Below are positions 30,973 through 48,590 of a stretch of DNA of 64,000 nucleotides, piece by piece. Source of the stretch: Megalonaias nervosa (Eukaryota > Mollusca > Bivalvia > Unionida > Unionidae); NCBI GenBank assembly GCA_016617855.1, contig JAECUM010003209.1, forward strand, positions 62,001 through 126,000. The letters run 5' to 3'. Positions within the stretch are counted from its first letter, which is position 1. Each line of letters opens with the position of its first letter. The notes beneath the pieces were generated by a model. The model searched no databases and was not told the origin of the DNA. It was given only the letters and a program-made list of their open reading frames with translations. The position numbers and the translations under genes were made by a program.

Positions 30973-31514
30973 AGTAGTATATGGGGGCGATGTACGGACA
31001 ATGGGAATTAACAATACAGACCCCCCTGGGGGGATATACGGACAAGATTTATACGGACAAATGGAACACCCTGGGGGGATATACGGACAATGGGAGTTAT
31101 CATTTAAAACATGGGCACCATACGGACAAGATTTATACGGACAAATGGCACACCCTGGGGTATATACGGACAATGGGAATTTTGTATAGGGACAATAGGA
31201 ATGGAACAGGTGGGATGACGTCATGGTACTGGACACTTGTAACAATCTGGCAAGGGGTTGACCTGAATACGCGCAGCTACTCTAGGGAGGGACAAACACA
31301 AGAGACATATACAACACAACCATAAATTGATGAACATCAATCTATCATACCTAAATTATACAATCGACTAAAAAAAATTTTAGGCAAGAGAAAGTAAATC
31401 TTTTCTAGGCAATAGATTTACCCATTACATATATATTATACAACAAGTAAAAACATTTTTAGGCAAGAAAGAATAAATCTTTTCGAGGCATAGGAAGTGG
31501 CCCTGAAAAGGGCG
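30973..31514. repeat. Left terminal inverted repeat of the Polinton
   Basis: About 540 bp match the reverse complement of 48550-49075 with few differences. The main length difference is a 15-bp unit (GATTTATACGGACAA) present here and absent on the right. The outer 190 bp carry about seven copies of TAYACGGACAA in blocks with CACCCTGGGG. The inner end carries the histone-like 3' stem-loop. Such repeats are probable origins for protein-primed replication. Confidence 0.95.
31475..31514 (-). terminator. Histone-type 3' processing signal in left TIR
   Basis: On the minus strand the sequence reads CGCCCTTTTCAGGGCC (31499-31514), then 14 bases, then GAAAAGATTTA. The 16-nt block has a six-base-pair stem (outer pair C-C mismatched here) and a TTTC loop. 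It is positioned downstream of the minus-strand gene at 31668-32102. The form and spacing match the stem-loop plus downstream element of replication-dependent histone mRNAs. Confidence 0.75.
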
Positions 31515-31667
31515 TTTGGGTTTTTCTATTTTCTTCAGTTCTTACACCAGCTTCGTAATTTTCAAATTATTCCTTTCTTCTTCTTCTTTTCTTCTTCTGC
31601 TATCCAGTCTGGATGTCCCATGGCTCTAAATTTTTGCTGTATTTTCATCCAGTTTTTATTCAGTCTG

Positions 31668-32102
31668 TCAAAGCCCTCTTTCTTTTGTTTTTTGGTTTTC
31701 CTTCTCCTTTCTCTCTTTTGTCCATTTCTCTTTGATTTTCTTCACCTCTTCTCCCATTACCTTTTTCATAATGTCTTCTCCTTTCTTTAAACCGTCAAAG
31801 CCGTTTTTGACAGAAGGCCACTCGGTTAAATGGAATGTCTTCCAGAAAAACACCTGTCTTCTATAACAATATCAATAAACTGTTTCAAGGTTCCCACTCT
31901 TACATATGTTAGGTCTATTAAGCCTCTCAACTTCTCCGCTTCCTCAACTATCATCCCTTGTAATTCATAACTGGCTACTTTCAGTCTGGTCACCAAGTCT
32001 TGGCTGCCCGGGAACCTCCATTCTTTTTCAAGCCTATCCAGTAGAGTATGATCCATCCATCATCCAGTACCAACTGTCTTTTAATTGGTTAAATGCATCC
32101 AT
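31668..32102 (-). pseudogene. TIR-proximal gene L1, unknown, frameshifted
   Basis: An ATG at 32100-32102 starts MDAFNQLKDSWYWMMDG just after the promoter block. The frame closes after about 20 codons, but a neighbouring frame (31826-32056) continues DRLEKEWRFPGSQDLVTRLK and later VEEAEKLRGLIDLTYVRVG. A second shift leads to a Lys/Glu-rich tail ending at 31668 (KKVMGEEVKKIKEKWTKE). It is helical and unlike known families. It reads outward into the left inverted repeat and its stem-loop terminator. Confidence 0.5.
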
Positions 32103-32104
32103 CT

Positions 32105-32195
32105 TGATAGGTGTTGACTAGTCAACATGGGTAGCCAGACTGACGAGCGTTCCACGTTATATACGTCAAGCACGGACGTGAACGAAAACATCCCT
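32105..32195 (-). promoter_or_regulatory. Shared promoter block, gene L1
   Basis: Read on the minus strand, AGGGATGTTTTCGTTCACG and TCCGTGCTTGACG precede a TATA box (TATATAA, 32158-32164), followed by CAGTCTGGCTACCCAT and then the start region. The same order occurs before genes L2 and L3. CACGTC resembles a CRE-type site. Confidence 0.6.
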
Positions 32196-32384
32196 TACAC
32201 TCACTTCACATATTATCTACTATCCACACAAACGAACGGGAAAGCATAAAACATACCATATCTACTATCCACACAAACGGACGCGAACGCAAAACACACA
32301 AACACATACACACACATATCAGTAAAGGAGTGAGTGTTTATAGTCACACTACTATACATTTACACAAATTGGCAAATTGAATAG

Positions 32385-32424
32385 CATCTCTTTTCTAGAG
32401 ATCTGGTTAGCCCTGAGAAGGGCT
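32385..32424 (-). terminator. Histone-type 3' processing signal of gene L2
   Basis: On the minus strand AGCCCTTCTCAGGGCT (32409-32424) forms a perfect six-base-pair stem with a TCTC loop. It is followed by AACCA, and 13 bases after the stem comes GAAAAGAGATG. AAAAGAG is complementary to CUCUUUU, the kind of sequence at the 5' end of U7 snRNA. It lies about 230 bases after the stop of gene L2. Confidence 0.8.
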
Positions 32425-32656
32425 GTTTTTAGAACTTCAGATGCACCTGGCTAATGGTGACATCTCCCAGGCCGGGCACAACACACACAACGACGGCTCC
32501 AGACCTGCTCCCAACTGATGTTTTTCCTGTGAGTGCAGAGGGAGGTTGACTGGCTTCAGATCCCCAATCTTCAGTTTCTGGGATTCTGAAGACTACCCTC
32601 TGTCTTTTTCTGTTCTGTAGCCGGGGATGATGTTGCTGACGCTGTGGCTCCCATTC

Positions 32657-33010
32657 TTACCGCTGTCTCTCCAAGTCCTCCAAGACCTCCTCCCAGTTTT
32701 CCATCTGAGGGACAGCGACTCTTGGTACTGGTGGAAGTGGTTGTGGTTGTGGCTGTGGCTGTCTTTGTTGTGGTGCTGCTACTGTCTGTGGAGGCGTCCT
32801 CACCTCAGGCTTGACCTCACGCACAGGTCTTACCATGAGGTGAGGCAGGATCCCTCGCTTCTTTTCCTTCTCCTCTTCTTTCTTTTTCTCTTCCTCTTCC
32901 TCTATCCTGGCTTCTTCTGCAATGGCCTCCATGGCCAGCTCGTCCAGGAGGCGTCTGGCATACTCCAGGTGCATCTGAAGTTTTAAAAGTTTTGCGATTC
33001 TGCTACTCAA
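32657..33010 (-). CDS. TIR-proximal gene L2, coiled-coil protein of unknown function
   Basis: By alignment with gene L3 the start should be the TTG at 33008-33010 (SSRIAKLLKL, matching MPSRLAKLNE of L3). The ATG may have been lost, or translation may begin at MHLEYARRLL nine codons later. The frame is open further upstream, but that part lies in the promoter block. The protein has a helical N-terminus, a Glu/Lys coiled coil, a Pro/Gln-rich linker and a C-terminal NWEEVLEDLERQR. Function unknown. Confidence 0.55.
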   Translation of the reverse strand: MSSRIAKLLKLQMHLEYARRLLDELAMEAIAEEARIEEEEEKKKEEEKEKKRGILPHLMVRPVREVKPEVRTPPQTVAAPQQRQPQPQPQPLPPVPRVAVPQMENWEEVLEDLERQR

Positions 33011-33011
33011 G

Positions 33012-33105
33012 TTCAGTGTTGATACGTCAACGATGGGTAGCCAGACTAACGATCGCATCGGTTTATACACTTGAAGCACGGACGTGAAGGTAAACATTCC
33101 CTGAC
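33012..33105 (-). promoter_or_regulatory. Shared promoter block, gene L2
   Basis: The minus strand reads CACGTCCGTGCTTCAAG, then TATAAACCG as TATA box, then AGTCTGGCTACCCATCG. It corresponds step by step to the blocks before L1 and L3. Confidence 0.6.
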
Positions 33106-33318
33106 ACCAAAACTTACCATCACATTAAACGCGCGGACCTAAAAGAAAGACTCACGTTGACTTTTTTACTTACAAACACAGACAAGCACTATTCGACAAG
33201 ACAGAGAAACAAAGGGTGGATTTGTTTTACTGACAAAAGAAACGAAGTTCTTATAGACACACTTCTATTTTTTTTTTAAACATGCAAACACACAATTTTT
33301 TTTTTGGCAATTGAATTA

Positions 33319-33360
33319 GTATGTCTTTTCGAAAGTATTGAGGTAGTGATGGCAATCTTT
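33319..33360 (-). terminator. Decayed histone-type 3' signal of gene L3
   Basis: The downstream element survives (CTTTCGAAAAGACATAC on the minus strand, followed by TTCAATTGCC as in the other copies). The position where the stem-loop belongs reads AGATTGCCATCACTAC and no longer pairs. It lies about 130 bases after the stop of gene L3. Confidence 0.4.
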
Positions 33361-33490
33361 TTTACTGTCTAAGATTGCGTCTCCGTCTGGCGGCAGGCTT
33401 TCCTTTACGATACGGCCTGCTTCTGCGGAAAGAGAAGGAGAACTCCTTGGTGTCTACTCGACAGTCAACAAAACCTCTGTCTGGTTTTTG

Positions 33491-33730
33491 CTACTGCTGC
33501 TGTTGCTGCTGTTGTTGTTGTTGCTGTTCTCTCTGCTTCTGAAGTCTGTTCTTCTCTGTCCATTCTTCTTGTTCTATCTTGATTTCCTCTCTGAAGACCT
33601 CTTCTATCAGGTCTTGGGCTATTGATAACATCCTGACATTCTCTATCTCGTCAGGATTCGGTATCAGGTTTAGCCTGACACGATGTAAATTGACGTAAGC
33701 TTCGTTCAGCTTGGCTAGTCTGGAAGGCAT
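33491..33730 (-). CDS. TIR-proximal gene L3, coiled coil with polyglutamine tail
   Basis: The 79-residue protein starts MPSRLAKLNEAYVNLHRV. It has a middle helix (MLSIAQDLIEEVFREEIKI) and a Glu/Lys/Gln-rich end that finishes in eleven glutamines. The ATG at 33728-33730 was chosen because it sits at the same place after the promoter block as in L1 and L2; the frame is open about 22 codons further upstream. The N-terminus resembles L2, so the two are probably paralogues. Function unknown. Confidence 0.6.
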   Translation of the reverse strand: MPSRLAKLNEAYVNLHRVRLNLIPNPDEIENVRMLSIAQDLIEEVFREEIKIEQEEWTEKNRLQKQREQQQQQQQQQQQ

Positions 33731-33734
33731 CTTC

Positions 33735-33830
33735 ATAGGTTCACGACTCAGCAGTGGATGGCCACACTGGAGTCCGACTCGCTTGATATGGTTCAAACGC
33801 GGACGCGATAGAAAACATCCCTACTAGGGT
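33735..33830 (-). promoter_or_regulatory. Shared promoter block, gene L3
   Basis: The minus strand reads AGGGATGTTTTCTATCGCG, TCCGCGTTTGAAC, then CATATCAAG in place of the TATA box, and GTGTGGCCATCCA before the start. It is the most diverged of the three blocks. Confidence 0.5.
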
Positions 33831-33962
33831 TTTTTTTGTTGGGTCGAAACGTTATGATAGCGAAGTGTCATGGTGAGGGATAGAGAGAAGTCAAAGGGCA
33901 TATATTCACAGACTTTTTTGAAAACAAACGACAGACACATGTTTTTCAAAACACAACATTTT

Positions 33963-33968
33963 TATTCA
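33963..33968 (-). terminator. Poly(A) signal after the protease gene
   Basis: AATAAA on the minus strand lies about 170 bases after the protease stop, so the structural gene cluster appears to use ordinary polyadenylation, unlike the terminal genes. Confidence 0.5.
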
Positions 33969-34137
33969 ACAAACAATGAACCACTAACAATTAACAATGA
34001 CATCAAATAAACTATTTTTGACTAGGTTGACAACGTTGTGAAATCATGTGAGATTTCCATTGATGGAAGTCATGAGGCCATTGATGTACACTACGTTTCC
34101 TAGCTAAATACAAAAGATATCCATAATGGTCATATAA

Positions 34138-34569
34138 CTATCGATCTACTTTCTCATCGTTTCTAGAAGAGTTACTATCAAAATAAGTCACTAAATGTTC
34201 TAAAGGATATCCAAGACTGCGTTGATGAAGAAAATACACACAATATTGTCCACACACCATGGAATCTGTGCCTTGTAATTTCACATTATTGTATCGTGTC
34301 GTCTGGACATTTCTTCTAATAGAGTCAATGATGTCGTCTTCCAAAGGGGGTAATCCATACGAATCAAAATATTCCACACAATCCTCTTGAGGGAAGTAGA
34401 CGGCGACCCAGTGAGTTCCTGGGAGATGACTGTTGTCCGTGTTGATGACATAAGCTTGATGGTCTTGAGGTTTGCGATGAGGTAGTTCATCTTTAGCGCA
34501 CACGACAGGATTCCAAGAAGCAGTATACGAACTGTTATTCAAAAGGTAATAAAGTTCCCAGGTATCCAT
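34138..34569 (-). CDS. Adenain-like cysteine protease
   Basis: The 143-residue protein is an adenovirus-type (C5/ULP-like) protease that would mature virion proteins. Catalytic positions are visible in order: His in LPGTHWVAVYF, Asp in VEYFDSYGLPP, Gln in VKLQGTDSMVCGQYC, and the nucleophile Cys in VCGQYC. An ATG at 34567-34569 (MDTWELYYLLNN) fits the short N-terminus of the family better than the upstream non-ATG start. The gene is intact. It is downstream of the major capsid gene on the same strand. Confidence 0.9.
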   Translation of the reverse strand: MDTWELYYLLNNSSYTASWNPVVCAKDELPHRKPQDHQAYVINTDNSHLPGTHWVAVYFPQEDCVEYFDSYGLPPLEDDIIDSIRRNVQTTRYNNVKLQGTDSMVCGQYCVYFLHQRSLGYPLEHLVTYFDSNSSRNDEKVDR

Positions 34570-34708
34570 TTTTTCTTGGTTTTTTTTCACAGGTAATAAT
34601 AAGTCATCAATTCAATCCTGACGTTTTGCTTGAAAAGCTCTGTCAAGTAGCCGTTTCTTAGCTTCGTCTCCCAGCTCTGGGCTAAGAGAGCTTCGATGCG
34701 ATAGATCT

Positions 34709-35068
34709 CTAGAGAGTCAATGGAGGGCAGGAATGATCACGCAAGCCTTTATACCACTCATGCAACACTGTTTCTTCTGAGATGACACTCCAAGCTTCAT
34801 CCAGATACTCGTCTAATTTCTCTTCTTGACTCATCATCAAACATTTATCGGGTTGAATTTGACTGGGATGATCGTTTTGACATCCACAGCAATCTTTCTT
34901 ACTCAATTCCATAATTTTATCGGCCAGGTGTTTGGCAAAACAGGACACTAAATGTTGTTCTTGTTCTGGCCATCTGGACGTGACCACTACGTCCTCTTTG
35001 TCTTGGTCTTGGGGTTCTGTTTTTACGCTATCCTCCCATTCCATTTCCAAAGATTCTCTACCGTTCAA
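34709..35068 (-). CDS. Small Cys-rich Polinton protein (CxxCQNDHPSQ)
   Basis: The frame encodes an acidic N-terminus (VKTEPQDQDKEDVV) and a domain HLADKIMELSKKDCCGCQND, HPSQIQPDKCLM, with a helical end (EEKLDEYLDEAWSVI). I associate the Cys-Gly-Cys and HPSQ combination with small proteins in other animal Polintons, but function is unknown. The true start is uncertain: no ATG precedes residue 9 and the frame is open back into the end of the capsid gene. Confidence 0.6.
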   Translation of the reverse strand: MNGRESLEMEWEDSVKTEPQDQDKEDVVVTSRWPEQEQHLVSCFAKHLADKIMELSKKDCCGCQNDHPSQIQPDKCLMMSQEEKLDEYLDEAWSVISEETVLHEWYKGLRDHSCPPLTL

Positions 35069-35094
35069 TGAGGGATAAGTGTCTTCCTTTGTTT

Positions 35095-36414
35095 CTAATA
35101 GTCTAGAATGACTTCCCTCAAACTGTTGATTTCTATGGTATTATCGAATTCGGCATACAAGATGACATTGACCGTCTCGGTGAGAGCTTCTGCAAACTGA
35201 AGGTCCACACGTAGTTGACCGGATTTTATAGGGTGGAAATGTCCCTCGTTGCTGCCTTAGTCTAGAGTGAAATCAAAGGCCCACAAAGTGTAACCTCCTA
35301 CATAATCTTCGTACGAAATACCGTGACTGGTGTTGGTTCCTAGTTGTCCGGTAGCTTCGTACAGAGACAAGAACAATCTCAAGTAATTCTTCTGGGCAAA
35401 GTTAGGTTCAAAGGGTCTGGTACACAAGGTCTTGGCATCGCGACTGACTTCGATCTTGGACACTCTGTAGTGCTGAAACTGGAAAGGATTTTGATCGTGG
35501 GCTCCGCTGAGGGCTGCATTACTGATGATGCCAACGATTAAACGTTTGGGTAACTGTCCTTCGAACAGATGATCTTCGATCTTGGATCGGAGTCCAGCAG
35601 CAATGGTGAAAGTTTTCACTTCTACATGTCGTATCGGATACTTGGCGGTCGTTCTGCTCAGTGTGTGACTGATGTCGTTTCCCGCTTTAGGTAACACTTC
35701 TACGCGGCGCACGTAAAGTCTGGCTTCTTGGATGATAGTTTTTTACTCGTTGGCATGAGCCATCAAATGGAAAGCGACACTGCTGAGATTTAATCTCAGG
35801 CGAATATCCACTCCGTTGAGCAAATTCTTGTCTTGCAACCACATCTCCAAATGCAAGCGATCCATCAGTTCTAAACTACGACCTTGCAGGATTTTATTTC
35901 GACGGTCGTTAAAACCCATATTGTGAGGATTGTCATCGGCTGTCAGGGCTCTGTCGTTAAACGTGTCTTCACCTGCGGTGTCAGGTTTCCATACCGCGCA
36001 AGCATCGAGATGAGTGTTCTTGGCCTCTTTTCCGTACGTCAAGAGATTTTCCAGGTGCGCTCGGTAAGGGTAAGTATCCATGCTACTGCTGACCAGTTTG
36101 TTATTCAAGTACAAATCCACTTCGCTGAATAAGGAATGCATGAAATTGTTGACGGGAGCTACTCTGGCATCGGCACCAGGATTGGTGTTGTCGGTTTTGA
36201 TCACTTTCAGTTTCAGGTACAAGTAACTGCTATTCAGATCGATGTAATCTTCGGGTTGTCTTTTGATTTCAAACTCGATGGGAACTGAATCCGTCAAAGA
36301 GGAGACGGGATGAAATTCGACCCATTGGGATTCTTGCATTGTCATCATGGTGGGTGGCATGGCAAACAGATCCAGTTCTGACTTGGAACAGGCGCAAGAC
36401 TCTCGATGCATCAT
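35095..36414 (-). pseudogene. Polinton major capsid protein (double jelly roll), two premature stops
   Basis: A single reading frame of 439 codons covers the gene, from MMHRESCACSKSELDLFAMP to DNTIEINSLREVILDY and a TAG at 35095-35097. It is the double-jelly-roll hexon-like protein of Polintons (the F54H12.2-like family of invertebrate annotations). Recognisable segments are QWVEFHPVSSLTDS, INDLNSSYLYLKLK-type strands, NNFMHSLFSEVDLYLN, and KYPIRHVEVKTFTI in the second jelly roll. Two in-frame TAA codons (35743-35745 and 35257-35259) interrupt it without any frameshift. The protein forms the capsid faces. The stops argue for inactivation. Confidence 0.9.
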
Positions 36415-36426
36415 TTTCTTTTTTTG

Positions 36427-36867
36427 TTAATACTCAAAAACGTCTAACTCTCGGACGGTTTTTCTGTTCTTAGTCTTTCTAGCTCTAGGGGTGTGAAGTC
36501 CTCTGAAGATGTGTTTTCGTCGTCTTCTTTTACCTTGTCCTTGCTGTGGCGTCAGGGAAGCAAGAATGCCTGACTCGGCATTGCCCAGGGCATTTATAGG
36601 AGTTTCTCGTCGGCCCAACATGTCTTTGCCTGTTTGAAGCAAGATATTTTTGCCTGCTCTCAAGAATGCTTCTTTAGGATTTTGTTTATCAATGATGACA
36701 TTTTGGAGAAATTCTTTACCTTGCGTCAAAGCGGCATCTTTCAAGGCGTGCAATCCCCGTGTCACCATCGGTTTCAAAACGGGAGCCACCGAACGAAAGG
36801 CTGATTTTAGCATATCTCCTAAACCATGTCCTCGCTGTCGAGCGACTCCTTGGTACACAGGATACAT
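36427..36867 (-). CDS. pVI/pX-like minor virion protein
   Basis: The 146-residue basic protein begins at MYPVYQGVARQRGHGLGDML and continues into an amphipathic helix (KSAFRSVAPVLKPM). It has a second Gly/Lys segment and a C-terminal basic stretch (GKRRRRKHIFRGLHTPRARK). HGLG and similar Gly-rich sites are plausible protease cleavage sites. By position between minor and major capsid genes and by composition it corresponds to adenovirus pVI/pVII-type internal proteins. The ATG at 36865-36867 is the first in frame. Intact. Confidence 0.7.
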   Translation of the reverse strand: MYPVYQGVARQRGHGLGDMLKSAFRSVAPVLKPMVTRGLHALKDAALTQGKEFLQNVIIDKQNPKEAFLRAGKNILLQTGKDMLGRRETPINALGNAESGILASLTPQQGQGKRRRRKHIFRGLHTPRARKTKNRKTVRELDVFEY

Positions 36868-36880
36868 GACTGACAAAGGG

Positions 36881-37741
36881 TTAGAGTAATCGTTTTTGAA
36901 AATGGACTGTGACTTTTCCTTTGGTGAATGGAATATTTTGTCCCAGATCTCCTTTTATAGTAATGTTTACAGTGTCTAAATACGACTTACGGACGGGTAA
37001 ATAGTGGGGATGTACAAATTCTCGGTGAACGTGATAGGTGTTTCCACCTTCCTCGTCAGCGTTCGTGGCAGAATCCACTTTGAAAGGAATGACACGCAGT
37101 AACGGTACTGAGGTGTGTCCCACCACGATGTGCTCCGCCACATCGAAGTACACAAAGATCAAATTCAGTCCTTGGTTCATTTCTACAGGGAATCGAAAAT
37201 ATTTCGCAAAATCCGAGTTACCGGTCACGGCTGGTATTTCGTTTGTAGTCGTGATCAACTTGGGGTCTCCACCCAAAATGTCATACAATTCAGGACAAAA
37301 TGTAATGGCCAATACTTTGTCCTCAGAAAATTTCATCATTAGGCGACGAGCTATTTTGTGGTATTCAATCGTGACACTTTTTCTGGTTTTCTCCAAGACT
37401 TTGCCAAACACGTTATTGAACCTGTCAGCAATGGCGTTCACCAAATGTTGACCACTAAAATAATAGCCTGAGGGAATTTTCAATCGATAAGTGGTTCGTA
37501 TAGTTTTGGGATCTTGTGATTTCATAGAGTCACCTATCGTGCATTCATCCAAGTGTTGTTGCACTTGCTCGTCATGAACTTCTACCGTAAAAGTGTTTTG
37601 ATTTTCGACGATGTTTTTGATTTGTGTAGGGTGAATCATTTCCACCAAAGCCACTTCCCAATGGGCTTCTTGATCCAATTGGATGGTCTGAGGTAATTTG
37701 GCAGTGTAACAACATAAGGTGTTATTGGGAAACACCTCCAT
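36881..37741 (-). CDS. Penton-like minor capsid protein
   Basis: The 286-residue frame is intact. It starts MEVFPNNTLCCYTAKLPQTI, then HWEVALVEMIHPTQI. The middle has RLKIPSGYYFSGQHLVNAIA and ITFCPELYDILGG. The end has VHREFVHPHYLPVRK and VNITIKGDLGQNIPFTKGKV. This order of strands matches the single-jelly-roll vertex protein of Polintons. It is clearly different in sequence from the fossil copy at 22774-23416. The ATG is 14 bases upstream of the next gene in the direction of transcription. Confidence 0.85.
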   Translation of the reverse strand: MEVFPNNTLCCYTAKLPQTIQLDQEAHWEVALVEMIHPTQIKNIVENQNTFTVEVHDEQVQQHLDECTIGDSMKSQDPKTIRTTYRLKIPSGYYFSGQHLVNAIADRFNNVFGKVLEKTRKSVTIEYHKIARRLMMKFSEDKVLAITFCPELYDILGGDPKLITTTNEIPAVTGNSDFAKYFRFPVEMNQGLNLIFVYFDVAEHIVVGHTSVPLLRVIPFKVDSATNADEEGGNTYHVHREFVHPHYLPVRKSYLDTVNITIKGDLGQNIPFTKGKVTVHFQKRLL

Positions 37742-37833
37742 GGAACTGTCACTGGGTAACGTTCAGTAAAATTGGTTATTCATAATTCCAGAGTTCTAGT
37801 GTCCGAGGGGTCGCTGGAAGTCAGAGGAGTGTC

Positions 37834-38184
37834 TCAAAGAGGATGGTTAGGATGACTGTTGGAAGGGGGACCAACGTTGGACACAAGACTCCCGTTGTTG
37901 TTCCCGTTAGAGGAATATTTCAGAGACGGATTGGGAAGAAGGTAACCGATGCAACTGCTGAGTAAAATGGTCCACAAATGTTTGTCTCCTTGTTGTAAAC
38001 TCAAATTGGCAATGGCAGCACCAATGACACAATACACCACAAAGATTTGGCAGAAAAAGACGATTTGCGTTTTAGGCACACGTTCTCCACACCACACCCA
38101 CAAGGGTTGCTTTTGTAGATCTTGTAGAGAAGAACTGGGGGAAGGAGTGGTTACTGCGGTAGCTGAGGCTGTGTTGAATGGCAT
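37834..38184 (-). CDS. Two-helix membrane protein conserved in Polintons
   Basis: The 116-residue protein has a Ser/Thr-rich N-terminus and two hydrophobic segments: QIVFFCQIFVVYCVIGAAIA and LWTILLSSCIGYLLPNP. They are joined by a short polar loop (NLSLQQGDKH), so a hairpin in the membrane is likely. I recall similar LWTxLLSSxxGYLLPNP proteins beside capsid genes of other animal Polintons. Function unknown; a virion membrane or egress role is possible. A TATA-like ATAAAAAG lies about 15 bases upstream of the ATG at 38182-38184. Confidence 0.65.
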   Translation of the reverse strand: MPFNTASATAVTTPSPSSSLQDLQKQPLWVWCGERVPKTQIVFFCQIFVVYCVIGAAIANLSLQQGDKHLWTILLSSCIGYLLPNPSLKYSSNGNNNGSLVSNVGPPSNSHPNHPL

Positions 38185-38407
38185 AATGGTCACTTCTTTT
38201 TATAGTCGATGAGTTGCGAAGCGTCGATCCAAGAGTCAAAACTGGGCGGATATCCTTTCCAACGTGCTTCGACTTCTTTGACACGTTTTTTTTTCCACTT
38301 TTCGGGTTCTTCGATCGAGAATGCTTTCGATCTCGTACACGTCGTCTTCTTTTTTGGTCACACGTTGTAACTCGGGCAAGTAAAACGTTCTTTTAAGACT
38401 TCCTCAT

Positions 38408-38605
38408 TCATGTCTCCCAAGTTGTAGACGTGAGGATGACGCCAAAATCGCCAAAGAATCCTCCTCTTTGGTGACTCCTCTTTTTCTTTGGAGGAGTGTG
38501 TCTTTTCTGGGGGTGACGTCTATGTTTGGCTAAGCGTTTTTTCCGATCACGAAACTGTCCTTTTCTTTCTCCTTTCTGGACGGGAGAACGACGATGAGGG
38601 GACAT
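38408..38605 (-). CDS. Small basic core-like protein, paralogue 1
   Basis: This 65-residue protein is about one third Arg, Lys and His: MSPHRRSPVQKGERKGQFRD, then RKKRLAKHRRHPQKRHTPPK and SHQRGG. Its neighbour at 38705-38896 has the same layout, so the two arose by tandem duplication. Composition is like protamines and adenovirus core proteins, suggesting genome condensation in the virion. The ATG is the one matching the start of the paralogue. Confidence 0.65.
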   Translation of the reverse strand: MSPHRRSPVQKGERKGQFRDRKKRLAKHRRHPQKRHTPPKKKRSHQRGGFFGDFGVILTSTTWET

Positions 38606-38704
38606 CTTTTGGTGCACAACATACACTAAAATCCATGGCTTCACATTCGTCCTTTCATCTTATTTTTTTTTCATACCGTATTGAGTATTGAGTATCTGTC
38701 CTAC

Positions 38705-40738: not shown

Positions 40739-40745
40739 GTCATCT

Positions 40746-41051
40746 TTAAAAGTGAACAACACGAAAGACAAAAATACATAAAACCCAAATGGCTAAGTAC
40801 ATGAATAAAAGACACATCAAAACGATCGTAGTGTAATATGAACAAGTCTCTGTACAACATTTGTGGTGATCAAGAGGTGGAATTGTAGGGACAGTGTGTA
40901 ATGTTCTTAGAGTCTCTACACTCCTTGACACAGTCACACAAGGGTCCTCCCGGAATGGTCTTTCGGGGGTGTCGATAACGGTTCTGTCCTGAAGAGGGTG
41001 GTTTTCCTCGGTCACAACTTCTTCTTCTTCTTCTGGCACTATCACTAGCAC
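40746..41051 (-). CDS. Single-pass membrane protein, unknown
   Basis: About 100 residues: an acidic N-terminus (VIVPEEEEEVVTEE), a Cys-containing segment (HHKCCTETCSYY) and a C-terminal hydrophobic helix (TIVLMCLLFMYLAIWVLCIF). The topology suggests a tail-anchored protein. A TATA-like TTATAAACC lies directly upstream, and no ATG is in frame before it, so the start codon may be mutated or non-ATG. No family recognised. Confidence 0.5.
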   Translation of the reverse strand: MLVIVPEEEEEVVTEENHPLQDRTVIDTPERPFREDPCVTVSRSVETLRTLHTVPTIPPLDHHKCCTETCSYYTTIVLMCLLFMYLAIWVLCIFVFRVVHF

Positions 41052-41090
41052 TGGTTTATAAGTTACTTTTTCACTGAATGTTTTAATTTT

Positions 41091-41566
41091 TTAGGATGAC
41101 AAATCTTGGGCATAGTGTACCACTTCTTTTGTCCAAACCTCGAAACCCCAACTTTTCCAGTCACGTACATCTTTCCAGTGAGGGTGTAAGTCACAAGCTA
41201 CACACACATCATCGTACACATCTTCAGTACCTAAAAGTTGACGAATCTCTCTTTCCTGTAGAGGTTGTCGAGAAGTATCGAAATGAAATCGTAAAGCTTT
41301 GAGCAGAATGAGTTCTTCGTGTACATTTAAAGGAACCACTTTCATGCTTTTTGGAGTGGTAAGCACTGATCGTAAAGAGTCCACAAAGAATCGGCTGGTA
41401 AACGAAATCCCAGAAAGCAATTCAGTAAGACACACACCACACGTCGACCCAAATTCAATGGGTACAGTTCTCGTAATAGGCAATCTTAATCCTCCACCGT
41501 TTGAATAGTGTCATTGATTTCCTTCCACGGAATCTGTCGTATCACGAATGATAAAGGTCGTGGCAT
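41091..41566 (-). pseudogene. Unknown Polinton protein, one frameshift
   Basis: A TATA box (TATAAAAA, 41576-41583) precedes the ATG at 41564-41566, which starts MPRPLSFVIRQIPWKEINDT. That frame closes after about 26 codons. A neighbouring frame continues from about 41.5 kb with RTVPIEFGSTCGVCLTELLS, then LNVHEELILLKALRFHF and DVRDWKSWGFEVWTKE. One indel near 41.5 kb explains the break. Function unknown. Confidence 0.5.
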
Positions 41567-41844
41567 GGTAGCCCGTTTTTATACCTCTTTTTGTCGGAGA
41601 CAATAAGTATACTTTCTGCACAGAGATGATAGTACTCCAGTGGCGAATCTAAATTGTTTAGTCACTAACTTGCAGATCACACACCGTTCAGAAGTGTCCT
41701 TTTGAACTAAGTTTACATTGTGTAAAAGATTTTGGTAACTTCTAACTCTTCTTCTGGAATTCGTTGCAGTATGTTTACCTTGTAGTAAAAAGAATCAGTA
41801 ACAAACCAATCCTTCTCGCCCAGGGGTACTCGAACAATGTCTGA

Positions 41845-42027
41845 TCATTGGAACGCTTTCATCAGAATCAGTCTTTTTATAGCATTCCGGTACCAGTGGT
41901 TCAAACATCGGTGACGTAACGGATGCAATTGTTCTTTGCGTTTCACTTGTATTTTCACCAACTCGCGGTAAATGCTTTCTCTCAACTCCACAGGCAAACC
42001 ACGAATGTTCTCTTGCAAAGTATCCAT
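41845..42027 (-). CDS. F-box-like small protein, paralogue 1
   Basis: The 60-residue protein begins MDTLQENIRGLPVELRESIY and continues RELVKIQVKRKEQLHPL. The LPxELxxxIYxxL pattern is the core of the F-box, the motif that recruits Skp1 of SCF ubiquitin ligases. The next gene (42084-42428) has the same motif, so the pair may be paralogous. The ATG chosen is the first in frame. A small viral F-box protein could redirect host protein turnover; this is inference from a short motif. Confidence 0.45.
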   Translation of the reverse strand: MDTLQENIRGLPVELRESIYRELVKIQVKRKEQLHPLRHRCLNHWYRNAIKRLILMKAFQ

Positions 42028-42083
42028 GATTATGTCAGTCAAATACTTCTCCTAGAGCGAAAGTAACGAATGTAGTGAGTAAT

Positions 42084-42428
42084 TTATGGCCACTGCCATT
42101 CCAGGAAACGGCCAAGAATGTCAATAAAATCTTCAAATGTAAATGGTCTAAAGCGGAATATATGGAAGAACGCACACTTGATCCAGAGAAATCTGACTTG
42201 TTTGTTGACTTTTTTCAATATCCTCTTGTGAATTTCTCGACATAAAAGTTCCTCAGTCACCCATCGAGATTTTGCTCTGGCAAGTCCCAGCCAAATGTTC
42301 TTGTAGATCTTCTCTTGCAATTCGTTTGGTAATGTTTGAAGATTATTTTTCCAATGGGGTTTAAATGCTTGTCTAGGTGTTGTCCAACGTTTAACTCCTA
42401 GCCAAGCAGCTGGTTTCTTAAACGACAT
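42084..42428 (-). CDS. F-box-like small protein, paralogue 2
   Basis: The 114-residue protein has NLQTLPNELQEKIYKNIWLG at residues 30-49, followed by a basic and aromatic region (KQVRFLWIKCAFFHIFRF). The F-box-like core matches that of the downstream gene at 41845-42027. It starts 12 bases after the stop of the BIR gene. No substrate-binding domain is recognisable. Confidence 0.45.
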   Translation of the reverse strand: MSFKKPAAWLGVKRWTTPRQAFKPHWKNNLQTLPNELQEKIYKNIWLGLARAKSRWVTEELLCREIHKRILKKVNKQVRFLWIKCAFFHIFRFRPFTFEDFIDILGRFLEWQWP

Positions 42429-42440
42429 GGTATGCCCACT

Positions 42441-42790
42441 TCAATGACGAGGTCCCACTAAAGGTAGGTAATGACAATCTGGAGACCATCGAGCATGTTC
42501 CAGGTAAGCGCAATCTTTCTTCTCCCACTCGTGAAGTGACACACTGCAACTGAAGCACTTGACTTTATCCCCTTCGCCCAAGTAGATAAATCCGGCTCTA
42601 GCTAATTCCTCGTGGGTATCTCCTCACAGATATTTTGGCCATTTTCCTCGGAAGGTTTGGATCCGACTTTCAAAGTCGCAGTATTCAGGCAAACGCACAG
42701 GGAACGAATATTCGTCTTTCACAGGTTCATCTCGATGAGGGTACGGTGAAATACGTAGGAGTGTGCTCAATTTGGGATGACATCCGTAGG
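42441..42790 (-). pseudogene. BIR-domain (IAP-like) protein with one in-frame stop
   Basis: A complete BIR zinc-binding fold is encoded. The N-terminal arm is CDFESRIQTFRGKWPKY, followed by an in-frame TGA (42624-42626), then HEELARAGFIYLGEGDKVKC, CFSC and EHARWSPDC. The spacing C-x2-C-x16-H-x6-C is exact. The frame ends at 42441-42443 (LPLVGPRH). No start codon is obvious; the frame is open upstream into the 3' end of PolB at about 42790. BIR proteins bind caspases or their regulators and block apoptosis. As a viral accessory gene it would delay host cell death. Without the stop it would be about 110 residues with a single BIR and no RING. Confidence 0.88.
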
Positions 42791-45700
42791 GTGGTAGCCG
42801 TCCATGATGACATCACCATGAAAGCCAGTAAAACTTAGAATCTTGTCGTCTGGATGCTCGTCCGCCCAGGCTCCTAAATGGTCTCCTTCGATGTTAGGGT
42901 GTTGTTGACCCAGACAGTCGATGTAGATGCAACTGTCCGTGTCAAAATACAGCACACGATCTCCTAACAGTTCTAAAGCTTCTTACAGTTTTAAACGAGT
43001 ATGGGCTGTCACGTAAGCCGCAATGATGACATTTCCAAAATTCGTCGGCTTCTACAAAGTCCAGTTCTTCTTCGTAATTGACTAAGATCAAGTCCTCACG
43101 AACGACGTCCACGTGTTTCGTGTATTTGGTTTTGTCGTGAATCATCTGGAAGTAGCGGGAAGGTTCTGTCAAATACTCCGTCTTGGGTAATCACGGTCGT
43201 TGTGCCCCACAAACAATTTAACATCACTTTGGCAAACGATCGCCTTCCTTCGTTTTCTCGACGTTGTCTAAGGTGATGCCTTCCTGCTCCCAGTATTTCT
43301 CTTTGAATTTCTTTTGGATTTCGGGAGTGTGGCACCAGGAAGGATAGCCGCTGGCTTCTTGTTTCAGTTTCAAAAGGGCATTCACGTAGTCTGCGAAAAT
43401 GCATTTTTATGTCTCGTCGCCCTTGTGGTATTTTTCTGTCTTGGTAAATTTCGTACACTTCTAACAATTGGTATCCCAGGTCCAGAGCTTTGAACAATTC
43501 CACGCTGACCCACGTTCCCGTTAAGGCGCGTTCTTCCTGGCTATGCTGACAAAGTCGGTCTTGGTTGCACGTTTCGGCACAAGTACAACACAAGGGAAAC
43601 ATCCGTTTTCCTTGGAAATGATGTGGCAAAACGGGATGGTATAAGTTCGTGGGAGGCAAGACTTTGCACTTGATCCTTCGTATTGTCGAATATTTTCCAG
43701 ATCGATGTGTTCCGTCAGCAATTGCGGGTGCCCTGCGGGAAAGTGACAATATTTGCAGACGTACGGACACATCGAACACAGGTCTAAGTATTTGATTTCT
43801 TCTCCTTTCTCCTCGTCGGCTTGGTACAGCAAACAGGTGGCATTCGTCCGTCCTCCGTACAAACTGTCCCGCGGGTTCAGTGGGTCCACCAGCTTGTAAC
43901 TTTCCACGATGCGATTAAACTCGGGATCGGTCTTCAATCGGTAATCGTACTCATGTTCCCACATTTCCACCAGTTGGTATCCTTGCTCTTATAACTTCAA
44001 GCGTCTCTGACAAGTGGCCTGGTACAAGTCTTCCATAGTCCGTTGTAAAAACTGATTTGTAGTTTCACGTTGAGGGTAACAGATGGGACATCCGTGAAAT
44101 AAGCACCCATTAAACTGGTACACGATCTTGGGGTTTTCTAAGTCCCAGCCATCAACCGAACACCTTCCGATGGCTTTTTCGCCTCCTCCGTTGCGAGCGT
44201 GATGTATCCATTTGTCTTCCTTGTCGCACTAATAATGTAACCAGAGTAGGGTTTTGACCGAGTATTGACGTTTGACAAAATTGGTCGTTTGAGGACTGAT
44301 GACAGCTAGGTTTTTTACTTCGGGCATGAATCTTTGGCGGTAAACTAAGGAACACGCTTTGGCAATGGTGCAGGCTTCTTTCAAAGGGTCGATCCCTCCG
44401 TGCTCCATGAACAGTTCTCGAAATTTTCCACAACAACGCCGTAAAATGTCCACGTCGGAACGACAATATTTTAACATATCTTCCTGAAAGTCGAAAGGGT
44501 CCGAGGCGTGAGTGTGATATCAAGCGTAGAAAGCGACTCGTTGTTCGGTACGCATGTTGTCGGGGTCGTAGTAGTGAGCTTCAGGCAAATGGGGTAGAAC
44601 GGCGTGTTGATTGGCTTCGGTGTTGAAAAAGTGTGGAAAATAGACTTTGGCCATTTCTGTCATTCCAAACGTTTTAGGCATGCGATTCAAAGGCATGACC
44701 AAGTAACTCATCGAATCTTTAAACTGCACTTGTCCCACTTGCATGGAAATGATTTTGGCTCCGTTCAAAGTCACTTTAGGACGTTTGGTACTTTGTTCCG
44801 TATAGTATCTGAGGAGAAATTGCCCGTCGTATCCCGAGAAATTGTGAGCCATCACCGTGGCATAGCGATGACAATCTCCGTAACGTTCGATGTCTTCTTG
44901 TCTCCACGTCTCGTTGATGGGGTCTAAGATCCATTGGGCGAAATCGGTCAGCGTGTTCGGTCCCCGAGAGATTTTTTTCACGACCTCCAGGAATCTTGCT
45001 GCAGTGAGGGCAATGAGTAAAGGTAGGCTCTTGGATGCACTTATCGCACGCTCGGTGAGCCACGAAGAAATTAGGAATGTGAATGCCAGTCTCTTGCATG
45101 CATTCGAAATCGAAAAAGATGAAGCTGCCTTTCTTCTGGTCATTATCTTCTTCTTCTTCATGTTTGGATTGGTATTTTTGAATGTAGCATTGGTGTTCCA
45201 AGTCCACGATTTGGCGACAAATGTGACGTCGCTTCTTTCCTGAACATTCGTGCGCCTTGGCACAATTGGTACGTATGCCTTATCCACAAGTAGGGCACAA
45301 TTTCCACAAGTAGGGCACAATTTCAGGAGTTGACAAGCACATTTCTGCTGTGAACCTTGCGCCTTTAGATGTTGCTGGTAACAGGCAGGGCTGACAAACG
45401 TGCGCTGACAAACTGGGCAATGCACTCGTTCTTGTCCTTCGTCCAGACAGGGCTTAGAGGCTAAACATCCTGAGCATTTCGATCCACAATGCTTGTGTTG
45501 CTCTCGATTGTTATAGCCATAGTCACATTTCTCACAGTAATAACCGTATCCCAGGAATCCAGTAATACTAGTAATGGCATCGAAATGTTTATCGTGATGA
45601 TAGACGTGAATGTATTTTCCGTCTTTGAAATCTTTGCCTCGAAACAACAGAGGTCCGCGCACTTCTTGAGGGTGCACTTTCTATGTGTAGCGTGGAGCCA

Positions 45701-46563
45701 AGACGTCTTGCAATTTTTGCATTTCAGGAATGCCACAGGGTGTGTCTTTGGATATCCCCGCTTGCTGTAACAGGAGTTCTGCTTCACTTCGTTGTTTGGC
45801 TCGGCTAGATTTTTGAATAGTTTGCCAGGTTCTTTTCCATTCTGCAGGGTCGTTCTTGTCGGCATACGTTCGTCCCACCACGATGGCTCGGGTTAAGCAC
45901 ATCTGGTCTTGAGGGTTGTTAATTTGAACGATGCTGCGCTTGACGCTGCGAAGGTCGTCTACCAATAACACCTTTTTGCGCTCTCCATTTCCTTGGGGAA
46001 GAAACACGTGGATCATGAACAGTGTCGCTTTTCCGTCGGTGATGTGAAACTTGTCGTTGGATTGTTGCACGTGTTGAATCTTGTCCATGATTTTGGAAGG
46101 TGTCAGTTCTGCCGGACTGCTAAACTCGATCCAAACGGGGGACTTCAAACTGTCGTGATGAATGGAAAGTCTCAAGCGATCGTCTTCTTTGGCTTCACAT
46201 TGCTGTTTCAGTGTGGTTAACAAAGAATCCCACACATCAGTGATGAACCCTTCTGCTTTCTCCAGCGGTACGTCTGACTTGAAATCTTTAAACTTTACTG
46301 TGTACGTGTAAGCCGTAGTTCTAAATTTTCTAGAGGAGCGTTTGTCGGTCTCTCGAATGTGAAAGTACTTTTCAGGGTTTACTGGTGGTGATGGCAGACT
46401 TTGGCTGGGTGTAGACTCTCTGGGTCTGGATTCTGGTTCACTTATCTCCAAAATCACTGGTATGAATTTGAGCCAAGGCTTCAGCAACTGTGCGAGGCGA
46501 TAAATCACGTTTGTGTCTCTTACTTTCTTCTCCTTTCTTTACGAAATGATGCGATCGTTTCAT
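42767..46563 (-). pseudogene. Protein-primed DNA polymerase B, heavily broken
   Basis: The gene starts at the ATG 46561-46563 (MKRSHHFVKKGEESKRHKR) and covers about 3.8 kb. Recognisable parts in order are: an N-terminal domain ending CGIPEMQKLQDVLAPRY; zinc-finger pairs (CEKCDYGYNN, CPVCQRTFVSPACYQQH); Exo I (FIFFDFECMQE); Exo II (VMAHNFSGYDGQFLLRYY); motif A (KYLDLCSMCPYV); motif B (FAKVMLNCLWG); and motif C (LYFDTDSCIYID). In-frame stops occur at 45681-45683, about 44520, about 44229 and near 43.99 kb. Several frameshifts also occur, one explained by a 20-bp tandem duplication at about 45282-45323. The palm Tyr of motif A is Cys. It would replicate the element. Confidence 0.9.
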
Positions 46564-46697
46564 CTTGACTGCAAAAAGTCAAATGACTACATTTGATACG
46601 CCATGGACCCTATATATCCATGTCAGGCTCAGTGTATATATAAAGGGCTGGTGCCTTCCCTCTCAGTATTGATTTCGCTCTCAAGCCGACGAACACG
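46564..46697. promoter_or_regulatory. Divergent promoter between PolB and zinc-knuckle gene
   Basis: Two TATA boxes point away from each other: TATATAGGG read on the minus strand (about 46608-46617), about 45 bases before the PolB ATG, and TATATATAAA on the plus strand (46635-46644), about 55 bases before the ATG at 46698. The 134-bp gap leaves no room for other genes. Confidence 0.7.
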
Positions 46698-47156
46698 ATG
46701 GAAGAAACCACACAGATCGAACTTCTGATTAGAGCCTTGCGAGGTGTCATACGAAAGTTTTCTTCGGACAAGCCGATGGACTACTCCCCCTCCTTTCAAG
46801 ATAAAAGTCAAGATAACTGCTATATCTGTCAGAAGAAAGGGCATTGGGCTACAGAATGTCCAGACCGTCAAAAAAGCAAGACCAGTGTCAAAAGAGACAG
46901 TCAAGATACCTGTTATCATTGTCAAGAGAAAGGACATTGGTCTTCAGACTGCCCTAAGAAACAAAAGGAGCAGGAGGAGGAAGAAGAAGAGGTGCCCTCG
47001 GCAAAGGAAAAACTCCGAAATGTTCCGAAAGAGAAGACAGAAAAGAAAAGAAGACGAGAAAAAAGTGAGGAAGAAGAGGAGGAAAAAACTGTGAAAGTGA
47101 AGAAATTTTTAAAAAAAACAGAGAGTGAAAGGAAAAAAGACACAGAAGAAGTATAG
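46698..47156 (+). CDS. Double CCHC zinc-knuckle protein
   Basis: The 152-residue protein has two zinc knuckles of the C-x2-C-x4-H-x4-C type (CYICQKKGHWATEC at about 41-54 and CYHCQEKGHWSSDC at about 72-85). A long Glu/Lys-rich tail contains nuclear-localisation-like KKRRREK. The knuckles are near-identical, so they arose by internal duplication. Such domains bind single-stranded nucleic acid. It is transcribed divergently from PolB and may act in replication or RNA binding. Its downstream region lacks a histone-like stem-loop and carries AATAAAATAAAA near 47315. Intact. Confidence 0.85.
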   Translation: MEETTQIELLIRALRGVIRKFSSDKPMDYSPSFQDKSQDNCYICQKKGHWATECPDRQKSKTSVKRDSQDTCYHCQEKGHWSSDCPKKQKEQEEEEEEVPSAKEKLRNVPKEKTEKKRRREKSEEEEEEKTVKVKKFLKKTESERKKDTEEV

Positions 47157-47363
47157 TGAACTGTTTTAAAAGTGTTGTGTTGTGCTGTGAATTGTTTTGT
47201 AAATATTTGTACCAGAATAGACCAGACTGAGAAAAGTAAGTGTCTCTTTTTTTTATTTTTTATAATAAGGGCCTACACTCACGCACTCACGCACGTACAT
47301 CATAATGTTAAAATAAAATAAAAGGGATTTTGAGTTTTAATTTATTTTTGGCAAAATGAATAG

Positions 47364-47403
47364 TATCTCTTTTCGAAAGAAGTGAGTGGCCTTGAAAAGG
47401 ACC
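47364..47403 (-). terminator. Histone-type 3' processing signal of the 47599-48078 gene
   Basis: On the minus strand AACGGTCCTTTTCAAGGCCAC (stem-loop at 47388-47403) is followed after 13 bases by GAAAAGAGATAC. The stem keeps the outer G-C pairs with a wobble and one imperfect pair. It lies about 195 bases after the stop of the coiled-coil gene. Confidence 0.72.
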
Positions 47404-47598
47404 GTTTGGTGTTTTGTTTTCTTTTTTTCAAAAACAACAAACTCAGGAACGAGAAGCAATCAGCTTTAACTGCCTTAAGTATTTGCCACAGCCAAGGCCT
47501 ACTTCTGGACTTGCTCCCGTCGATGGTTTGGTAGAAATCACTAAGGGTAGTATCTCCGGTGTACTAACAGGGTTAGACTGTTTGGCTGGGGAAGGTCT

Positions 47599-48078
47599 TT
47601 ATCTCTTTGGTCGTAATAAAGAAGTCTGATACATTTGTTTCAGACTTCTTAACTCTGCCAAAATGTCTAAGAGTACCATTACCATTTGACTTTTACTGTT
47701 CTCCTTCTCTCCTAGACCTTGTTTCTTCTCTACTGCTTCTTCTTCTTCCTGTCGTTTCCTTCTTGCCTCTTCTTCTTCTCGCTGTTGCTGTTCAAGGAGA
47801 AAAGCTTGTTCTGCCTCTTTCTGCTGTTGTAAAAATTTCTCCAGTTCTTCTTTCTGTCTCTGTTTAAAATCCTCGACCTGTGGTAAAGAAGAAGAAAGTG
47901 GTGAAGGTACTGGCACCGGAACAAATTCTTGCGAAGAGAGAAAATCTACTAAATCCCACTTGAAATCGGTCTCTTCTGGAAGTAGCGCTGTGTTAACTTT
48001 GGTAGCCACTGCTATGCAATTGCTTCTCGTCTCCACAGGCGGTGCACCCCAATTCATTGTCTTCTTAGTTTCCGTCAT
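47599..48078 (-). CDS. Coiled-coil protein near right end, unknown
   Basis: The 159-residue protein starts MTETKKTMNWGAPPVETRSN. It has a Pro/Ser-rich linker (FVPVPVPSPLSSSLPQ), then a long Gln/Glu/Arg coiled coil (EELEKFLQQQKEAEQ and following) and a final helix (MVMVLLDILAELRSLKQMYQ). It resembles the left-end L2/L3 genes in layout (coiled coil plus low-complexity segment) and shares their 3' signal. Intact; function unknown. Confidence 0.65.
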   Translation of the reverse strand: MTETKKTMNWGAPPVETRSNCIAVATKVNTALLPEETDFKWDLVDFLSSQEFVPVPVPSPLSSSLPQVEDFKQRQKEELEKFLQQQKEAEQAFLLEQQQREEEEARRKRQEEEEAVEKKQGLGEKENSKSQMVMVLLDILAELRSLKQMYQTSLLRPKR

Positions 48079-48129
48079 GTTTCACAAAACAATGTCTCAT
48101 CGATTCACTGCGCAGGGAATGTGACGTCA

Positions 48130-48288
48130 CAGGTAACTCTCTTTGGATTGGAAGACAGGCTCCGCGAAGTGACTGAATTTTGTAAGGCGTGTTGGGATTG
48201 GTGAACAATTTCAAGCCGTTTCGATCCGGTCTTCCACTATAAATAAACGCGATTCACTTCATTCCCTTCACCTGTTCCTTGTCACAAG
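48130..48288 (+). promoter_or_regulatory. Histone-gene-like promoter of the right-end gene
   Basis: Two inverted CCAAT boxes (TTGGATTGGAAG and GGATTGGTGAAC) lie upstream of TATAAATA (48238-48245), which is about 45 bases before the ATG at 48289. CCAAT pairs plus TATA are typical of replication-dependent histone promoters, and this gene also has a histone-type 3' end. Confidence 0.5.
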
Positions 48289-48522
48289 ATGTGGACCAAC
48301 GTTGAATCCTCTACTTTCGTATCGTCGTTGTTTTTCCGTACGGACTTACCCATGTATGTGAGATCATCATGGAGAATCATCAGGATCACCGAGACAAGCG
48401 TTTGGATAAGAAGGACTTATGTGGATAGACAAGGTTGTCTGAAGTGGACTCTCATCTACGGACCAGAGGTTAGACAAAGTTTGAGGAAGAGAAGAAGACC
48501 TATGCGATGTCCTCTATGTTAA
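48289..48522 (+). CDS. Right-end small basic protein, unknown
   Basis: The 77-residue intact frame starts MWTNVESSTFVSSLFFRTDL and ends in a basic tail with CPLC (RKRRRPMRCPLC). No family is recognised. It has a TATA box, CCAAT boxes and a histone-like stem-loop that begins 27 bases after the stop codon, the usual distance in histone genes. It points outward into the right inverted repeat, mirroring gene L1 on the left. Confidence 0.65.
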   Translation: MWTNVESSTFVSSLFFRTDLPMYVRSSWRIIRITETSVWIRRTYVDRQGCLKWTLIYGPEVRQSLRKRRRPMRCPLC

Positions 48523-48549
48523 CGGAATGGTGCTAACATAACAAACAAC

Positions 48550-48590
48550 GGCCCTTTTCAGGGCCACTTCCTATGCCTCGAAAAGATTTA
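48550..48590 (+). terminator. Histone-type 3' processing signal in right TIR
   Basis: GGCCCTTTTCAGGGCC (48550-48565) has a perfect six-base-pair stem and the loop TTTC, preceded by CAAAC-AAC and followed by ACTTCC. After 14 bases comes GAAAAGATTTATTC. This matches the consensus GGYYCTTTTCAGRRCC of metazoan histone mRNA stem-loops base for base. Confidence 0.85.

Follow-up and report, generated by a model that had tools for sequence, protein, structure and literature searches.

Histone-type mRNA 3' ends on the terminal genes of a Polinton family in the Megalonaias nervosa genome

Introduction

In the textbook view, replication-dependent histone mRNAs are alone among metazoan mRNAs in lacking poly(A). 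They end in a stem-loop (Rfam family RF00032) that is bound by SLBP, and a purine-rich downstream element pairs with the RNA of the U7 snRNP. Viral messages can also end at hairpins, as in mimiviruses and virophages, and in this they resemble the messages proposed here. However, the mimivirus and virophage hairpins are not known to have a fixed histone sequence or an accompanying U7-type element, and they give polyadenylated ends. To our knowledge, no mobile element or virus family has been described that employs the histone 3'-end machinery for non-histone genes of its own. Polinton/Maverick elements are characterized by a 6-bp target duplication. PMC4028283 gives a size range of 15-20 kb and a gene set comparable to that of the element described below. 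In the literature that was searched, as far as its text was accessible, we found no description of histone-type 3' ends on Polinton genes.

Here, we argue that the end genes of a Polinton family, referred to as A, B, and C, probably use functional host SLBP/U7 histone-type 3' ends. This view is based on the signals themselves, their position and strand, their recurrence across the host genome, the degree to which they are conserved, and their agreement with the signal of a host H2A gene. A preliminary description had proposed histone-type 3' ends on Polinton genes; genome-wide recurrence, the match to the host histone signal, and conservation in copies that were not selected by their loops all bear the proposal out.

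A decayed Polinton and its end genes

Judged by its sequence features, the 18.1-kb element at 30973-49075 of the window (the whole 64-kb stretch of DNA analysed), whose first letters are AG, is a decayed copy of the Polinton/Maverick type. First, it is flanked by 6-bp target-site duplications, GTAAGT, at 30967-30972 and 49076-49081. Second, it is bounded by terminal inverted repeats (30973-31518 and 48546-49075), with arms of ~0.5 kb (31050-31518 and 48546-49014) that are 98% complementary. Third, it has domain matches to PolB, ATPase, protease, BIR, and chromo families, several of them weak. PolB (PF03175) is matched in three pieces with E-values of 1.4e-05, 3e-05, and 1.3e-04, all of them a little short of the curated cut-off, and its reading frame is broken in this copy. 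The ATPase matches (FtsK with E 7e-04 and A32 with E 9e-04, alongside many other P-loop families), the C5 protease match (E 0.0055), and the capsid N-terminus match (E 0.14) are weak and below cut-off. A putative penton-like gene, whose relatives are unnamed proteins, occupies 36881-37741. A chromodomain fragment lies at 38193-38357 (E 8e-04), and it was found without an RVE integrase core in the element pieces scanned. Size, target duplication, inverted repeats, PolB pieces, and weak ATPase and protease matches liken the element to known Polintons; what sets it apart is that its end genes have histone-type 3' ends.

Three gene types bear loops: A at the right end, B, which is convergent, and C at the left end. 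None matches a histone. Gene A (48289-48522, plus strand) encodes 77 amino acids in an intact frame, with the C-terminus RCPLC. Its dN/dS of 0.28 (11 copies) indicates that it is a real gene. A search of the host genome with its protein gave 150 scored matches; no homologues were found in the protein database, and an AlphaFold model was set aside (mean pLDDT 48.5). Upstream lies a predicted promoter (48122-48243, plus strand) in which a TATA box accompanies inverted CCAAT boxes; it comprises TGACGTCA at 48122-48129, ATTGG at 48147-48151 and 48197-48201, and TATAAA at 48238-48243. Gene B (47599-48078, minus strand) is coiled-coil-like; its frame stops early in this copy, and similarity to the family tail extends to 47446. 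Type C is represented on the minus strand by C1 (32657-33097), which is also coiled-coil-like, by C2 (33491-33796), and by the remains of C0 (31530-32120), which is interrupted in this copy.

Histone-type signals in the window

The four 16-nt stem-loops noted in the preliminary description are present where it placed them, all in the sense of their genes, and each is followed by GAAAAGA at the spacing it gave. The gene A stem-loop, GGCCCTTTTCAGGGCC, lies at 48550-48565 (plus strand) and begins 27 nt past the stop codon, as had been claimed; its downstream element is at 48580-48586, 14 nt after the loop. The other three are on the minus strand: gene C0 at the left repeat (loop 31499-31514, downstream element 31478-31484, spacing 14 nt), gene C1 (32409-32424 and 32389-32395, 13 nt), and gene B (47388-47403 and 47368-47374, 13 nt). 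Gene C2 has the downstream element alone (33324-33330, minus strand), in keeping with the loopless site reported near 33.32-33.36 kb. Counting G-U as a pair, all six stem pairs form at 48550 and 32409, where the outer pair is A-U rather than G-C. Five of six form at 31499, which has a C-C mismatch as its outer pair, and at 47388, which has one mismatch in this copy. A covariance search with RF00032 placed only the best loop above the gathering score of 34 bits (48545-48591, plus strand, 35.5 bits, E-value 4e-07). The other three, all on the minus strand, scored below it: 25.7 bits at 32385-32429, 25.0 bits at 31473-31519, and 20.3 bits at 47364-47408.

Could these signals be chance resemblances? 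The three sub-threshold scores speak for it, the E-value of the best loop against it. Moreover, the pattern of stem, loop, and GAAAAGA has exactly four matches in the window, none of them outside the element, whereas 100 Markov copies of the window gave 14, or 0.14 expected per window. Recurrence across the genome, described below, also counts against chance, and we rejected this explanation as extremely improbable on the strength of the Markov-copy counts and the presence of the loop in every gene A copy picked by protein.

The loops at 48550 and 31499 each mark the inner edge of a terminal inverted repeat, a placement absent from the preliminary description, and are therefore two copies of one repeat. 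This location invites the idea that the palindrome functions at the DNA level, perhaps in replication or in resolving the inverted repeats, and owes its likeness to a histone signal to descent alone. However, the loops at 47388 and 32409 are away from the repeats, making a purely repeat-bound function unlikely; neither the loop letters nor GAAAAGA is palindromic, and in the aligned copies both are found on the 3' side relative to the sense of the gene; and forms with G-U wobble, GGTCC..GGGCC among them, recur in gene B, although they would not be favoured in a DNA palindrome. We regard a role as DNA as very improbable. As a 3'-end signal for RNA, on the other hand, the position has a ready consequence: with a signal at the repeat's inner edge at both tips, outward transcripts would end before the repeat and the host DNA.

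Recurrence and conservation

The 2.19-Gb host genome contains 75 scored RF00032 matches, of which 66 exceed the cut-off, the best at 44.1 bits. Among the 72 loci read (all but C22427, C15191, and C4408), 68 have gene types or ends of this element, with assignment to gene C resting in part on low-complexity coiled-coil sequence. The other four were given no gene type. For L022 and L076, the match to the element is confined to the loop stretch; L043 has that match and, in addition, two weak pieces of the penton-like gene; and L019 has no match to the element. Viral contigs and prokaryote genomes that were scanned yielded no relatives with DNA context.

Since these loci were chosen by the loop, copies chosen in other ways are more telling. 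Among gene A copies selected solely by their protein, the loop is present in 20 of 20, 26-31 nt past the stop codon. It is identical at 16 of 16 positions in 13 copies, at 15 in six, and at 14 in one; all six stem pairs form in 15 copies and five in the remaining 5; and GAAAAGA is found in 18. Similarly, at loci found via another loop, gene A has a loop with at least 15 of 16 positions identical in 11 of 13 cases among the matches listed (35 of 40 tblastn hits), and gene B in 7 of 11. Both counts leave out tblastn pieces short of the protein end, six of them for gene B, and L010, a near duplicate of L009, is also left out.

In copies not selected by their loops, conservation is 0.94 for the loop and 0.89 for the downstream element, versus 0.78 for third codon positions (column permutation 0.001, for copies that share ancestry and with no correction for phylogeny). 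For gene A, loop and downstream element are also better kept than the downstream flank. These values bear on the possibility that a histone gene 3' end was captured once, spread with the element, and is now idle, its transcripts being polyadenylated further downstream. In favour of this view, the loop is identical to that of host H2A, which makes such a capture plausible, and some copies have decayed loops. However, an idle module would not be expected to outlast third codon positions or, for gene A, the flank, to stand in sense on three gene types, or to persist in all 20 protein-selected copies. We consider an idle captured end improbable.

Polyadenylation signals

The preliminary description had also proposed that the structural gene cluster uses AATAAA. 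This is borne out only in part. Two genes have AATAAA downstream and no loop: the zinc-knuckle gene (46698-47156, plus strand), which is convergent with gene B and is followed by two AATAAA signals (47312-47322, plus strand), and the protease-like gene (34138-34590, minus strand; AATAAA at 33961-33966). For capsid, penton, ATPase, and PolB, no poly(A) site was established.

Might the end genes be processed in both ways, by the loop in S phase and at a downstream poly(A) site otherwise? Gene B has AATAAA on its own strand (47341-47346, minus strand), ~20 nt after GAAAAGA, and in alignment A1 ATTAAA is found at the same place in L012, L015, L021, and L030, although not in L029. Gene B may thus have a second, polyadenylated end. 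The host H2A protein ends in SQEY, an H2A.X-like tail, which fits the same idea. There is also precedent, in that a human H2A pre-mRNA is reported to be processed either way (PMC9756948). On the other side, neither AATAAA nor ATTAAA occurs on the plus strand from the gene A loop to 49100 or on the minus strand from the gene C0 loop to 30900. Dual use is compatible with functional histone-type ends; as a description of the end genes it is possible but rather doubtful.

Host machinery and functional implications

An intact host H2A gene has a loop identical to that of the element, followed 12 nt later by GAAAAGA, and scores 37.8 bits with RF00032, a value exceeded by the best element loops. The loop is found at 2 of 11 host histone-profile loci, the other being a damaged H2B (L078) below the Rfam cut-off. 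In addition to the shared 16-nt loop, the element's signals resemble histone 3' ends in lying close to the stop codon and in the 13-14 nt to GAAAAGA; they differ in being on non-histone-like genes of a mobile, virus-like element. The host encodes SLBP (PF15247, matched twice on contig C954, with E 1.9e-15 for the better match). A search of the host genome for U7 snRNA with RF00066 gave five weak matches, none convincing; the candidate sites of pairing are GAAAAGA and a shared TTGCC further downstream.

From these signals we infer that SLBP binds, that U7 pairs, and that cleavage yields messages without poly(A) timed to S phase, as follows. Host RNA polymerase II would transcribe the end genes into short, apparently intronless messages. 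Host SLBP would bind the stem-loop and the host U7 snRNP would pair with GAAAAGA, allowing the histone cleavage complex to cut between the two. The product would be an mRNA ending in the loop, without poly(A), made and retained mainly in S phase. End-gene proteins would then be made during host DNA replication. Ordinary AATAAA ends are present on the protease and zinc-knuckle genes, if not on others.

What are the functional implications? First, histone-type ends suggest that the proteins of these genes are mainly produced while the cell copies its DNA; if so, this would be a mechanism coupling Polinton gene expression to host DNA replication. Second, animal Polintons may follow a split programme, with end genes tied to S phase via SLBP/U7 and virion genes expressed via polyadenylation, a generalization for which we hold the balance to be even. 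By analogy with adenovirus genome tips, the end genes are possibly early regulators. Third, if the interpretation is true, the class of non-poly(A), histone-type mRNAs extends beyond histones to a high-copy virus-like element, and poly(A) RNA-seq could overlook the end genes.

Finally, the copies differ among themselves. Loops have decayed in gene A at L015 and L029, and in gene B at L007, L013, L047, and L017. An argument from pairing asymmetry (G-U kept versus C-A broken), judged by eye, was dropped because both kinds occur and because loci chosen with RF00032 are biased. The family offers, within one genome, many natural variants of a putative SLBP/U7 site.

Histone-type stem-loops in the element

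The element occupies 30973–49075, is flanked by two GTAAGT duplications, begins with AG and is taken as a decayed Polinton copy. It carries four histone-type stem-loops, each followed by the downstream element GAAAAGA: at 48550–48565 (+) after gene A, a 77-aa gene at the right end (48289–48522), with GAAAAGA 14 nt on; at 47388–47403 (−) after the convergent gene B, 13 nt on; and, after the left-end genes C1 and C0, at 32409–32424 (−), 13 nt on, and 31499–31514 (−), 14 nt on. Positions and strands are as the preliminary description gave them, and the fifth site, at 33.32 kb, indeed has the downstream element without a loop. When scored with the Rfam model RF00032, only the gene A loop (35.5 bits) exceeds the gathering score of 34 bits; the loops of C1 (25.7 bits), C0 (25.0 bits) and gene B (20.3 bits) fall below it. 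A pattern scan of the 64-kb window, requiring at least 5 of 6 pairs in a histone-type loop and GAAAAGA within 8–20 nt, returned exactly these four, and 100 Markov copies together gave 14. The scan found no further loop of at least 13/16 anywhere else in the window. The terminal inverted repeats (31050–31518 and 48546–49014; 98% complementary, with outer pieces besides) have their inner edges 4–5 nt from the loops at 31499 and 48550. Within the repeat, the downstream-element stretch occurs twice, at 31369–31411 and 31448–31490, 79 nt apart, and only one of these follows a loop.

Recurrence across the host genome

RF00032 has at least 75 scored matches in the 2.19-Gb host genome, at least 66 of them over the cut-off. 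The 75 are a lower bound, as is borne out by the absence among them of a host H2A loop scoring 37.8 bits, compared with up to 44.1 bits for element loops. We read 72 of the 75 loci, and 68 of these contain gene A or B, C genes of the left end, or that end itself (one, L075, assigned by eye); the other four (L019, L022, L043 and L076) are unassigned. L019 has a 42-bit loop at 1506–1521 with GAAAGA, matches no part of the element and has upstream none of the short histone motifs looked for. Across L036–L077, none of these motifs was found within 900 nt upstream of the loops. Genes A, B and C have no evident mutual likeness. What they have in common is the loop, a spacing of mostly 13–15 nt, GAAAAGA and then, ~18–21 nt on from where GAAAAGA starts, TTGCC. 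This TTGCC, noted at that distance for genes A and B as well as for host H2A, might extend pairing with U7. A search by gene A protein alone gave 6898 first-look candidates, and all 150 that were scored matched, the window's own included, which suggests a very high abundance of the element family in the host genome.

Conservation of the loop and downstream element

Because most loci had been chosen by their loop, conservation was assessed on copies not chosen in this way. At loci found via another loop, gene A has a loop of at least 15/16 in 11 of 13 copies (exceptions L029 and L015) and gene B in 7 of 11 (exceptions L007, L013, L017 and L047; L010, a near duplicate of L009, is omitted); both counts omit matches short of the protein end. 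Among gene A copies picked by protein alone, all 20 fetched have the loop (13 at 16/16, six at 15/16 and one at 14/16), 26–31 nt from the stop codon, with GAAAAGA in 18 and TTGCC in 19. These 20 are 87–95% identical to the window's protein with no internal stop, and are thus near relatives rather than independent copies.

For gene A, mean pairwise identity among the another-loop copies and the window, gaps excluded, is 0.94 in the loop, 0.89 in the downstream element, 0.84 in the 3′ UTR and 0.54 in the downstream flank; first and second codon positions stand at 0.88 and third positions at 0.78. With gaps counted, the values are 0.89 (loop), 0.83 (coding) and 0.74 (UTR). Column permutation of loop plus element, on copies that are related, gave 0.001 against third positions and 0.03 against the 3′ UTR. 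The gene itself has a dN/dS of 0.28 over 11 copies, with dN below dS in 52 of 55 pairs. The corresponding identities for gene B are 0.87 (loop), 0.86 (element), 0.78 (coding), 0.56 (UTR) and 0.72 (downstream flank). In alignment A1, paired changes in the stem exceed those in shuffles, for copies that are related and with a count inflated by one loopless row of the 29 (33262).

Histone machinery and processing

In the histone pathway as described in PMC9756948, SLBP binds the stem-loop and U7 pairs with the downstream element; the message is cleaved and receives no poly(A). Messages of the element's genes would be processed in the same way via SLBP and U7, and the S-phase expression proposed in the preliminary description would follow from that pathway. 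By analogy, these end genes may be likened to the early adenovirus genes at the genome tips. The host genome encodes SLBP (profile match); a search of it found no U7. PF00125 has 11 matches in the host genome, with a loop by pattern at two of the loci. L081 is an intact H2A with GGCCCTTTTCAGGGCC 41 nt past the stop, GAAAAGATG 12 nt further and then ATTGCC; its protein ends in SQEY, presumably an H2A.X-like tail, so it may not be typical bulk H2A. The second locus, L078, holds a damaged copy of H2B whose loop is the same and scores under the Rfam cut-off. No description of a Polinton with a histone-type stem-loop was found in the literature searched, a scope outside which most subscription papers lay.

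The promoter of gene A was surveyed at 30 starts, which a short motif had located. Of these, 24 have a TATA box 50–51 nt ahead of the start codon, 26 have one or more copies of ATTGG within 260 nt upstream (mostly near −91 and −141), and 23 have a CRE-like site. The host H2A promoter likewise has GATTGG and TATAAA. This resemblance to histone promoters is only a hint, given how common boxes of this kind are and that the copies are related.

Other 3′ ends

The structural gene cluster had been said to use AATAAA. The motif does follow the zinc-knuckle gene (46698–47156, +), twice, at 47312 and 47317 (+), with 66 bp separating it from the opposite-strand loop of gene B, and the protease-like gene (34138–34590, −), at 33966 (−); the statement is supported in part, for these two among the structural and replication genes. 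Past the loops of genes A and C0, neither AATAAA nor ATTAAA occurs within the element. Gene B has AATAAA on its own strand at 47346 (−), ~20 nt past its GAAAAGA, which counts against a clean split between loop genes and AATAAA genes. ATTAAA stands at this place in L012, L015, L021 and L030, and not in L029. PMC9756948 reports one human H2A pre-mRNA that can be processed either at the loop or by polyadenylation.

Other features of the element

The element contains PolB pieces, a zinc knuckle, a BIR domain, a chromodomain fragment and weak ATPase and protease matches. Several genes are broken, most Pfam matches are under the cut-off (BIR and zinc knuckle excepted), and profile scans of translated pieces found no integrase core. 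The chromodomain fragment (38193–38357, −; E = 8e-04) may be the remaining tail of an integrase that has been lost. The BIR (inhibitor of apoptosis) domain lies inside the element (42444–42623, −; E = 4.3e-19) and marks an IAP-like gene carried by the Polinton. A 68-nt block occurs three times between the left-end C genes (32127–32194, 33033–33100 and 33754–33821), which are putative tandem units with an upstream region in common. The penton-like protein has relatives on short contigs, at 56–80% identity.
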